A DNA stretch of 64,000 nucleotides. It comes from Halobacteriales archaeon QS_4_70_19 (lineage in GTDB: Archaea; Halobacteriota; Halobacteria; Halobacteriales; Haloarculaceae). Under the pieces are notes generated by a model. It was given only the letters and a program-made list of their open reading frames with translations, made no database searches and was not told the origin of the DNA. The stretch covers positions 1 to 64,000 of the forward strand of contig PXRM01000035.1 of assembly GCA_003020985.1 (NCBI GenBank), given 5' to 3'. This document shows, one piece after another, positions 2-3,734 of the stretch (within the stretch, counting starts at the first letter, position 1; each line of letters starts with the position of its first letter). The position numbers were made by a program, and so were the translations under genes.

Positions 2-1006
2 GACGGCCAGCTCACGGAGGGGACCATCGACGAGGACGCCGTCGGGGCGTTCGGCGGCGAGATCGTCGACACCATCTGCAAGCTCCACTCGAACACGCGG
101 GCCCGCCAGTTCGTCAACGAGGTGGCGACGCTCGCGATGCGCTCGATCATGCACTTCGGGTTCTCGCTGGCCATCGACGACGAGTCCATCGAGCCCGAGG
201 CGGAGGCCCAGATCGGCGAGGCCATCGCCAACGCCGAGGAGCGGGTCCAGGAGCTCATCTCGACGTACGAGGCCGGCGAGCTGGAGTCGCTCCCCGGCCG
301 CACGGTCGACGAGACGCTGGAGATGAAGATCATGCAGACGCTGGGCAAGGCGCGTGACTCCGCCGGTGACATCGCGGAGGACTACTTCGACGACGACAAC
401 CCGGCCGTCGTCATGGCCCGGTCCGGCGCGCGTGGGTCGATGCTGAACCTGACCCAGATGGCCGGCTGCGTCGGCCAGCAGGCGGTCCGTGGCGAGCGCA
501 TCAACCGCGGCTACGAGGGCCGCACGCTCAGCCACTACCTGCCCGAGGACCTCTCCGCGGACGCCCACGGCTTCGTGGAGAACTCCTACCGGAACGGCCT
601 GACCCCGCGGGAGTTCTTCTTCCACGCGATGGGCGGCCGGGAGGGGCTGGTCGACACGGCCGTCCGGACCTCGAAGTCCGGCTACCTCCAGCGCCGGCTC
701 ATCAACGCACTGTCCGAGCTGGAGACGCAGTACGACGGCACGGTCCGGGACACCTCGGACACCATCGTCCAGTTCGAGTTCGGCGAGGACGGCACCTCCC
801 CGGTGCAGGTCTCCTCGAGCGACGACAACGACATCGACGTCGAGGCGATCACCGAGCGCGTCCTGGACGAGGAGTTCGCCGACGAGGCCGAGAAGGAGCA
901 GTTCCTCTCGCGGGCCTCCGTCGACACGAACATCTCCGAGCACCAGGACTCCTGGAAGACCGGCCGCACCGCCGGCACGGGCACGGAGGTGGAGTCGGAT
1001 GACTGA
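2..1006 (+). CDS. rpoA1: DNA-directed RNA polymerase subunit A' (3' part)
   Basis: This is the C-terminal part of archaeal RNA polymerase subunit A', the N-terminal two thirds of the split largest subunit that holds the catalytic site. The reading frame is open from the first bases of the window, so the gene begins upstream. Visible RNAP signatures are [23 protein letters not shown] and [19 protein letters not shown] followed by the bridge-helix stretch [12 protein letters not shown]. The tail is acidic, as expected in a halophile. The stop overlaps the rpoA2 start by 8 nt, so the two halves are translationally coupled. Confidence 0.97.
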
Positions 1007-3734
1007 GTTCGACGTGAGCGACGACGTCGAGGCCATCGTGGAGGACACGGACCTCCCCCGCCGCCTCAAGAACGAGGTGTACGAGGCCGTCGAGAGTCGC
1101 GACGTGCCCCTCGAGAAGGTAGACGAGATCGCGCAGGCCGTCGAGTCGCGCTATCTCGAGACGCGCGTCGACCCGCTTGACCCCGTCGGCACCGTCTCCG
1201 CGCAGTCTATCGGGGAGCCCGGGACGCAGATGTCGCTCGATGAGGCGGAGCGGGTACTGATTCGTCGAGACGGGAAAACTGATACCGTCCGTATCGGACC
1301 TCTCGTCGATTCACTGCTGGAATCGTCCGAACAGCGCGAACTCGATGATCACGAGGTCGCGCTGGCACCTGACGGTCTGGAGGTTCTGAGTCTCGGCTCC
1401 GACGAGACCGTTCAGTGGAAGACGGTTGAGGAAGTGAGCCGGCATACTGCACCGGACGAGCTGCTGGAGATTGAACTTGAGTCGGGTCGCGAGATACAGG
1501 CGACGAAAGCGCACTCGTTCGTCACTCGTCAGGAAAACGAAATCGTCCCGGTCGCCGGTGAAGACCTCGATGTCGGCGACTGGCTTCCCGTGATCGGTGA
1601 ATTCGATTCTCACGGACCCGGGAGCGTGAATCTCAAGCGATATCTCTCGTCGTCGGACTACTGGTTCACCTCCGCACTGACTGATGGCGGTGATGTCGAA
1701 TCTCGGACCCCTTCGGGCCCCGAACAGACGAGGAACAAGCGATCGAAACTCGAAACCGGCGAGCTGCAGGAGGCGACTGCTTACCCGGTGCAAGGAACCG
1801 TTGGACTCCCGGAGCAGTTCCCGCTCGACGAGGAGACGGGGTTCTTCATCGGCGCCTGGCTCGCTAAAGGTTCCACGACGGATCGACACACGTCGATCTC
1901 GAACACTGATCCGGCGTTCCAGACCCGGATTCGGGAGTTCGGTGACCGGTTCGACCTCGCCGTCACCGGATACGAATCCTCGCGCGGGTTCGCAAAGGGA
2001 TATGATATGCGGCTCAACGGCAAGGTCCTGTCCGAGTTCCTTGACGCGGCCTGCCGAGATGATGACGGTAACCGGATCGTTCCTAGTTTCGCGTTTGGTG
2101 CCCCCGAAGTGTTCGTCAAAGGGCTTCTCTGTGGGTACTTCAGCGGAGATGGGAACGTTGCAAAGAACGCGATCAGAGCAGCTTCGACGAGTAGCCGGCT
2201 CGCCACTGGAATCGGGCTCCTGCTGAGTCGTGTCGGTGTGTATGGTCGCTTCGGAGAGAACAAGAACACTACGACGCTCCGAATCCCGAAGAAGTTCGTG
2301 CCGCGGTTCGCCGAACGCGTTGGGCTCGTCGGCGAGCGTAAGGCACAGATCGAGGAGTTAGCTGCGGATGTCCAGCCTGACGATCCGGATGTGAGTGACC
2401 AGATCCCCAACTTCGGTGATGCTCTCGAAGCTGCCGCGACTACCGCTGGCATACCGCAGCGGCAGGTGAACAGTGCTACGAAGCGACAGCGAATCGGACG
2501 GCGACGGCTCAAACGGCTCGTTGGCGAGATCGAACGCCTCTCCGAGGAACCTCCCGCAGAACTCGGCGCGTTAGAGCGTGCTGTCGAGGGGGATGTTGTC
2601 TGGGAACGAATCGAGCGAATCGAGCCAGTGGAGCCAACAGGCGACTACGTCTACGACCTCTCGGTCGCGGGGCTGGAGACGTTCACTACCGCGGAGGGTG
2701 TCGTCACACACAACACGATGAACACCTTCCACTACGCGGGCGTCGCGGAGATCGACGTCACGCAGGGGCTCCCCCGGCTCATCGAGCTGGTGGACGCCCG
2801 GAAGACCCCGGACACGCCGATGATGACGGTCCACCTGGAGGGCGAGTACGCGGTCGACCGCGAGCGCGCCCACGAGGTCGTCTGGGGCATCGAGGCCACC
2901 CGCATCCTCGCGCTGGGTGACGTCTCGACGAACGTGGCGGACATGATCGTCCGCATCGACCTCAACGAGGACACGCTCCACGAGCGCTGGCCCACGGTCG
3001 ACGACACGGCGGAGATCGTCGGCGAGATCGCCGACACCATCGAGTCGAAGCTGGGTGTCGAGACCAGCACGATGACCGGCACTGACGGCTCCGTCATCGA
3101 GTTCGGCCCCGAGGACCCCTCCTACCGGGAGCTGCTCCAGCAGGTCGAGGAGCTGCGCGACATCGTGTTCAAGGGGATCGACGAGGTCTCCCGCGTCGTC
3201 ATCCGGAAGGAGGAGATCGAGGACGAGGAGATCGCCGCCGACCTCGACGCCGACGAGGAGTTCGTCCTCTACACGGAGGGGAGCGCCTTCGGCCAGGTGC
3301 TCGACATCGAGGGCGTCGACGCCTCCCGGACCACCTGCAACAACATCCACGAGATCTACCGGAACCTCGGCGTGGAGGCGGCCCGCGAGGCCATCATCGA
3401 GGAGACGATGAACACCCTCGAGGAACAGGGGCTGGACGACGTGAACATCCGGCACCTGATGCTGGTCGCCGACATCATGACCAACCGCGGCACCGTCGAG
3501 TCCATCGGCCGACACGGCATCTCCGGCAACAAGCAGTCCGTGCTTGCCCGCGCCGCGTTCGAGGTGACGGTCAATCACCTGCTCGACGCGGCCATCCACG
3601 GCGAGGTCGACGACCTCAACGGCGTCACGGAGAACGTCATCGTCGGGAAGCCGATCAAGCTCGGCACCGGCGACGTGAACCTGCGGATGGGCGCAAAGCA
3701 GAGTGGCAGCGAAGGCGGCCCCGCGGACGACTGA
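999..3734 (+). CDS. rpoA2: RNA polymerase subunit A'' precursor with intein
   Basis: This is the C-terminal half of the archaeal largest RNA polymerase subunit, 911 aa as encoded. The N-extein (residues 1-78) ends in IGEPGTQM and the C-extein resumes at [10 protein letters not shown], the start of the trigger loop needed for nucleotide addition. Residues 79-572 are an intein (separate entry). Removing it leaves 417 aa, a normal A'' length. The C-extein continues with [18 protein letters not shown] and ends in [18 protein letters not shown]. The gene starts inside the rpoA1 stop. In most haloarchaea nusA follows directly; here it does not. Functional polymerase must depend on intein splicing. 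Confidence 0.97.
1233..2714 (+). mobile_element. intein with LAGLIDADG homing endonuclease domain in RpoA''
   Basis: This in-frame insertion of 494 residues sits between GTQM and TMNTFHYAG. It starts with Ser1 (SLDEAERVL) instead of the commoner Cys1, has a block B TxxH motif (TKAHSF), and ends in block F/G with [13 protein letters not shown] and GVVTHN, followed by Thr+1. Two dodecapeptide-like helices are present: [10 protein letters not shown] near nt 1840-1870 and [11 protein letters not shown] near nt 2121-2156. The second keeps its acidic residue. The first has Lys (codon 1866-1868) where an acidic residue is expected, so cleavage activity may be lost although splicing looks intact. The codons are visibly more AT-rich than in the exteins, which fits horizontal spread. 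Confidence 0.95.

Follow-up and report, generated by a model that had tools for sequence, protein, structure and literature searches.

We analysed a stretch of 64,000 nucleotides (hereafter referred to as the window) from the draft genome of Halobacteriales archaeon QS_4_70_19. The window contains a gene for RNA polymerase subunit A'' that is interrupted by an intein. The features of the locus are as follows.

999 to 3734, + strand: RpoA'' gene (RNA polymerase subunit A''/Rpo1C), intein-interrupted; ORF of 911 amino acids (Pfam and NCBIfam)
999 to 1232, + strand: N-extein, last residues GEPGTQM; its alignment reaches residue 81 of P. furiosus Rpo1C
1233 to 2714, + strand: intein, 494 amino acids, Ser1 to HN (ORF translation, Pfam, NCBIfam)
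1233 to 1607, + strand: N-terminal splicing half, residues 1-125, boundary approximate (NCBIfam); region also kept in mini-inteins
1503 to 1514, + strand: block B TKAH, residues 91-94 (translation)
1794 to 2387, + strand: LAGLIDADG endonuclease (HEN) domain, residues 188-385, boundary approximate (Pfam, predicted model, Foldseek, profile alignment)
1839 to 1871, + strand: block C of the HEN (same-site intein alignment, HEN profile)
1866 to 1868, + strand: Lys212 (AAA), where the nearest relatives have the catalytic Glu (GAA) (same-site alignment)
1968 to 1970, + strand: Gly246 (GGA); Glu in 48/48 other distinct full-length relatives (alignment)
2127 to 2156, + strand: block E of the HEN, with Asp306 at 2148-2150 (alignment, HEN profile)
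2571 to 2714, + strand: C-terminal splicing half, residues 447-494, HN at the end, boundary approximate (NCBIfam)
2715 to 3734, + strand: C-extein from Thr+1 of TMNTFHYAG, stop included; begins at residue 82 of P. furiosus Rpo1C

The intein occupies residues 79-572 of the 911-residue RpoA'' ORF, its 494 codons running from Ser1 to His493-Asn494 and being followed by Thr+1. The exteins align to adjacent residues, 81 and 82, of the solved P. furiosus Rpo1C, and the intein junctions are therefore exact, in agreement with the initial annotation of a 494-residue Ser1 intein between GTQM and TMNTF. Pfam analysis of the ORF revealed Intein_splicing (E 9.8e-20) and LAGLIDADG_3 (E 2.2e-12) domains; in NCBIfam, the intein_Nterm and intein_Cterm models were matched and the RpoA'' model PRK14898 covers intein residues 1-494 (E 7.1e-175). 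Class 1 inteins splice by means of a nucleophile at position 1, a TxxH motif, a penultimate His, a terminal Asn and a nucleophile at position +1. All of these are present in the window intein as Ser1, TKAH, HN and Thr+1, and the splice residues are thus intact, as had been noticed earlier. Ser1, TxxH and HN are found in 66/66 distinct same-site inteins, the window intein included. The insertion pair of the window, with TMNTFHYAG downstream, is found in 63 of these, while three have TMNTFHFAG; since the loci were selected by the junction motif, this count is a check on the window intein and not on the family. Residue 89 (1497-1499), beside block B, is Gln in the window intein, whereas at least 47 of the 48 other full-length relatives have Arg there.

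With its HEN domain and 494 amino acids, the window intein is not a mini-intein, and it is 55-74% identical to its full-length relatives. On sequence grounds, it is a new member of the known haloarchaeal rPol A'' intein allele. The haloarchaeal rPol A'' inteins found here share with it the site, Ser1/Thr+1 and both domains, but nearly all have Glu as the block C acid where the window intein has Lys. Passages of PMC1635734 name the Nph (Natronomonas pharaonis) and Mja rPol A'' inteins, which reside in the same subunit as the window's. Table 2 of PMC4071816 includes an allele 'rpolA' with 10 Halobacteria, and we infer that it is the same RpoA'' insertion site.

In M. jannaschii A'', the trigger loop has G72 in its N base helix and I98/E99 in its C base helix, according to passages of PMC2776397. 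A manual count along the window sequence across the junction and on to PRLIE, with no gaps assumed, puts the junction between residues 75 and 76 in M. jannaschii numbering. By this count the insertion point is inside the trigger loop, between the N base helix glycine and the C base helix, rather than immediately N-terminal to the trigger loop, where it had originally been placed.

Catalytic acids of the endonuclease

The predicted model of the window intein (pLDDT 83) was compared with solved structures using Foldseek. Top fold matches include PI-PkoII, TliVMA, PI-PfuI, PhoVMA, PI-SceI and I-DmoI, with E 1.5e-26 for 2cw7, 3.9e-20 for 1dq3 and 1.1e-7 for I-DmoI, and identify a LAGLIDADG fold. 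PI-PkoII (2cw7), TliVMA (7qss) and PI-SceI have the architecture of the window intein and match its fold strongly at 10-20% identity, but their exteins differ from the window's. An acid is present at both aligned positions in TliVMA and PI-SceI, while PI-PkoII is aligned at block E only.

Position 212 in block C is Glu in 47 of the 49 distinct full-length same-site inteins and Lys in the window intein and in L038. Glu212 is also present in all six further large inteins (L101, L102, L105 and L107, full length; L109 and L113, partial), which gives a block C Glu in 53 of the 55 same-site inteins examined. The block E acid Asp306 is found in 54/55, including the window intein, where block E contains GYFSGDGN; L040 has GDS instead of GDG. 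In block E of L105 (G445) the other catalytic acid is lost, with Asn in a GNG instead of a GDG. Codon 212 is GAA in the nearest relatives L008, L037, L039 and L040 and AAA in the window and L038, and on the intein tree Lys212 in the latter two represents two separate changes, each one G-to-A.

A HEN profile pairs position 212 with the Asp in block C of TliVMA (YLIADG) and position 306 with the Asp in block E of that intein (E 4.3e-5), so that both window positions could be mapped onto a solved intein. The same profile puts 212 and 306 at PI-SceI chain positions 218 and 326, in a weak match (E 0.26); D218 and D326 are the catalytic acids of PI-SceI. In passages of PMC8966425, the aspartates of blocks C and E are given as the catalytic residues. 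A compensating acid was looked for in the window HEN and not found, the gained D276 and D384 being away from blocks C and E in the sequence. The sole other carrier of Lys212, L038, is not a known active enzyme. The initial annotation had noted Lys for the expected acid in the first LAGLIDADG helix next to a retained GDG in the second, and had regarded the endonuclease as possibly dead unless active relatives carried the same Lys or the catalytic acid lay elsewhere; the same-site alignment upholds the loss of one catalytic acid, and neither exception was encountered.

Of the two acids of an active HEN, the window intein thus has the one in block E and lacks the one in block C. Since Lys212 replaces the block C catalytic acid, the endonuclease is probably dead or crippled, while nicking is conceivable because one catalytic acid remains. 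A second acid of this domain, Glu246, is invariant in the relatives and lost in the window intein alone (E246G), which is only suggestive as a sign of HEN decay. The PhoVMA intein (7qst; Foldseek E 3.3e-17), described in passages of PMC8966425 as inactive and devoid of the block C and E acids, is like the window's a full-length intein in which HEN acids are lost and the fold is kept. It differs in host gene and site, and both acids together with part of block E are missing from it, whereas the window intein lacks one acid.

Distribution and movement of inteins at the RpoA'' site

The class search was carried out in a sample of 391 genomes drawn from a larger group, with matches taken at E <= 1e-20. 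Matches were found in 55 genomes: 37 with full-length same-site inteins, 17 with mini-inteins (198-215 amino acids) and one (G354) with another intein. The exact empty-site pattern was present in 227 of the 391 genomes, G354 among them. Mini forms and empty sites are thus common at this insertion point, and the initial proposal that the insert persists only because precise loss is rare is not supported in that form. The 110 genomes without a class (full, mini or exactly empty) include many from family f3, in which the exact pattern is nearly blank. A further scan yielded 24 loci, 23 of them with a whole intein. The deduplicated set contained 49 distinct full-length and 17 distinct mini-inteins; mini-intein L099 and the six large inteins named above were added later. 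Many loci come from MAGs. In viral contigs, 18 stretches matched a search pattern and none of them was a relative.

The GC3 of the window intein is 0.672, compared to 0.962 for the extein and a median of 0.944 for 34 coding-like window ORFs. The AT-richer codons had been taken initially as support for a foreign origin. However, a GC3 deficit is found in 65/66 distinct same-site inteins and correlates with the GC3 of the host (r 0.78). That of the window intein is one of the largest, at rank 4 among 77 loci counted with duplicates. Since the deficit is general and follows the host, low GC3 is by itself weak evidence of foreign origin, and GC content as proof of such origin was rejected. A horizontal history of the intein is better supported by the tree and by comparisons within the genus.

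The genus of the window was represented by four genomes, the window's included. In the other three, the DNA flanking the site (999 bases upstream, which include the end of the preceding gene, and 1019 downstream) is 91.7-93.2% identical to the window's. G391 carries a Glu-bearing intein of another branch, with 64% amino acid identity to the window's, G392 has an empty RpoA'' site, which answers the question of whether close relatives lack the intein, and G393 carries a 199-residue mini-intein. Four states, large-Lys (window), large-Glu, mini and empty, are therefore present within four genomes. The intein closest to the window's, L008, comes from another genus code, while the intein of a genus-mate whose RpoA'' DNA is about 93% identical is only distantly related. 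A distant intein behind flanks that are about 92-93% identical indicates that at least one of the inteins of this genus probably arrived after the species split. One genus with four allele states provides a natural series for the homing cycle in a gene presumably needing splicing.

Further evidence of movement comes from L038, L039 and L040, three MAGs of one genus code (g9). The inteins of L038 and L039 differ at 9/1404 bases (0.64%) and their flanks, compared over a stretch in register of 200 bases upstream and 800 downstream, at 77/1000 (7.7%; p 7e-21). The inteins of L038 and L040 differ at 14/1404 bases and the flanks at 60/800; for L039 and L040 the values are 11/1404 and 38/1700 (p 0.001). 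Near-identical inteins in clearly diverged flanks point to a recent horizontal movement of this intein line. In a simple comparison the C-extein flanks of the trio lose register, perhaps as a result of indel errors in MAGs. Five of the six amino-acid changes within the trio fall in the HEN, compared to two of the 11 silent changes (Fisher p 0.035), and include Lys212 and a second Glu-to-Lys change in L038 and GDS in L040. Such a pattern suggests that constraint on the HEN was relaxed soon after the spread.

Cores of mini and full-length inteins

The rPol A'' mini-inteins (L061-L077, L099) share the window's site and have similar ends, but are 198-215 amino acids long, with no HEN and with a distinct middle. 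In the genus of the window, the inteins of G391 and G393 share 91.6% identity across bases 1-298 and 95.1% across the final 123, and between these segments only short stray matches occur; their flanks are about 96-97% identical. In five other mini/full pairs, matched by their ends (L061/L019, L065/L018, L070/L047, L073/L013 and L075/L013), 78-91 of the 97 residues at positions 1-97 are the same, compared to 11-14 of 24-25 at positions 98-122. For four of these five, DNA comparison gives a drop in identity that is abrupt in certain pairs and gradual in the rest.

Separate trees of the ends (about the first 97 and the last 38 residues) and of the middle (57 columns) were obtained for 18 mini- and 49 full-length inteins. 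The tree of the ends requires 12 mini/full changes, or at least seven if judged by the starred branches, and the data from the ends reject a mini clade (AU p 1.1e-9). In the tree of the middle, the mini-inteins form one side of a branch with support 100/99. Ends and middle each reject the tree of the other (AU p 1.3e-14 or less). At residues shared within the five pairs the same codon is used in 436/602 cases in the ends and in 45/102 in the middle (p 6e-8). Tested singly, G393/G391 (p 8e-8) and L065/L018 (p 0.0035) were significant and the other three were not (p 0.083, 0.43 and 0.17); two extra pairs outside the pooled five gave p 0.044 and 0.11. Pooling the four pairs without G393/G391 gave p 0.0007, and pooling all seven, p 1e-9. 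In control comparisons, 0/8 full-full and 2/6 mini-mini pairs were significant. Since the pairs other than G393/G391 were chosen for similar ends, the pair test is biased; the trees are free of that bias.

From these data we infer that cores were repeatedly exchanged by recombination behind shared ends. An origin of the mini-inteins in five or so independent deletions was given up after the trees and codon tests. Part of the middle clade could reflect convergence once the HEN had been lost. Convergence as the origin of the mini clade is weakened but keeps some probability: 24 gap-free columns without Trp117 still separate the mini-inteins, at an SH-aLRT of only 80, and a faster middle is also seen in 2/6 mini-mini control pairs. 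A tentative reading, to which we give slightly less than even weight, is that HEN-bearing and HEN-less inteins are two old core lineages that go on swapping behind shared, recombining ends, so that the HEN would be lost, and perhaps regained, by cassette exchange between alleles and not by one-way deletion. HEN loss at the RpoA'' site may then be cassette swapping rather than fresh deletion. Passages of PMC3229294 present a homing-cycle model that neglects reciprocal conversion and assumes irreversible HEN loss. If mini and full cores do exchange, this assumption needs revisiting, and recombination could disarm or re-arm a dead full-length copy such as the one in the window. No description of an allelic series in one genus or of a mini/full core mosaic was found in the literature searched, mostly without subscription papers, that is, in passages of PMC4071816, PMC8966425, PMC2776397, PMC3024317, PMC1635734, PMC10643990 and PMC3229294; these two features may be what is new here.

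State and history of the window endonuclease

Selection on the HEN was assessed with a codon model (custom script, six taxa, long branches). Omega was 0.135 for the branch leading to the window intein, compared to 0.137 for its Glu-bearing sister L008, and with these six taxa neither differed significantly from background (2dL 1.03 and 1.55). Significantly lower values were obtained for L037 (0.008) and L039 (0.026; 2dL 10.3 and 8.2, respectively). For the splicing halves, omega was 0.032 on the window branch versus 0.070 for background, a difference that was not significant. The window intein departs from its relatives at six conserved columns, E212K, E246G and L373I in the HEN, R89Q and S462R (common to L008) in the splicing halves and D133N in the linker. 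The three departures in its HEN are not exceptional, since L038 and L040 also have three and L085 and L086 have five. As there is no significant relaxation of selection in the HEN, the Lys212 lesion is likely recent rather than a product of long decay, and the initial description of an endonuclease in decay is not borne out.

We consider it quite probable that the window harbours a large rPol A'' intein with intact splicing residues and a HEN most likely disabled by a recent Glu-to-Lys change. Judging from the intact residues, the splicing halves would fold together after translation and join GTQM to TMNTF inside the trigger loop. The HEN domain, to judge from homologues, would formerly have cleaved RpoA'' genes with an empty site and so spread the intein. 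One G-to-A change, probably recent, would have converted the block C catalytic Glu to Lys, leaving one of two acids, and the enzyme would most likely no longer be able to make a double-strand break. The intein would now be inherited vertically, or move only together with the host gene, and would be retained since the polymerase needs splicing. A role in splicing could also account for the retention of the window HEN, as reported for the HEN of an Hfx. volcanii polB intein in passages of PMC10643990, although HEN-less inteins occur at the RpoA'' site. The separate catalytic lesions at this site, Lys212 in two inteins and Asn306 in one, indicate which positions inactivation can hit first.

The independent origin of Lys212 in two lineages, the conservation of the window HEN domain and the very recent spread of the L038 trio would also be expected if Lys212 were tolerated or selected, the enzyme still binding its site and nicking one strand or blocking it in some homing or regulatory role. 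We regard this as unlikely. The block C acid is retained by 53 of the 55 inteins examined, and L039, which is nine nucleotides away from L038, keeps Glu, so the transfer within the trio need not have used Lys. The excess of amino-acid changes in the trio HEN is as expected once constraint is lost. Moreover, only two transitions of GAA are non-silent and one of them yields Lys, so that mutation bias can explain the repeat. Somewhat less likely still is a sequencing or assembly artefact: Lys212 rests on a single base of a draft assembly (81.9% complete, 46 contigs), but the same AAA codon is present in L038, an independent assembly of a separate lineage, the reading frame is intact over 911 codons and the HEN domain has a further private change, E246G. 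Precise loss of inteins is thought to be rare (passages of PMC3229294), which would suit a HEN that is ancient, long-decayed baggage retained only since precise removal is impossible, but such long decay is very improbable given an open intein frame with no stops, the omega and conserved-column results, both catalytic acids in the nearest intein, L008, and the mini and empty alleles within the genus of the window.

In four further inteins of this genome both HEN acids are preserved, as read by eye. Inteins were seen by eye in an apparent DNA polymerase II large subunit (L003/L006), GyrB (L004), ATPase subunit A (L005) and dCTP deaminase (L007). One more intein (L002, contig C6 of G000) lies in the P-loop (PPNAGK/C...HN/TT) of a GTPase-like protein, named by eye, and has unusual LAGLIDADG motifs, FLALTIGEA and LFDCEG.
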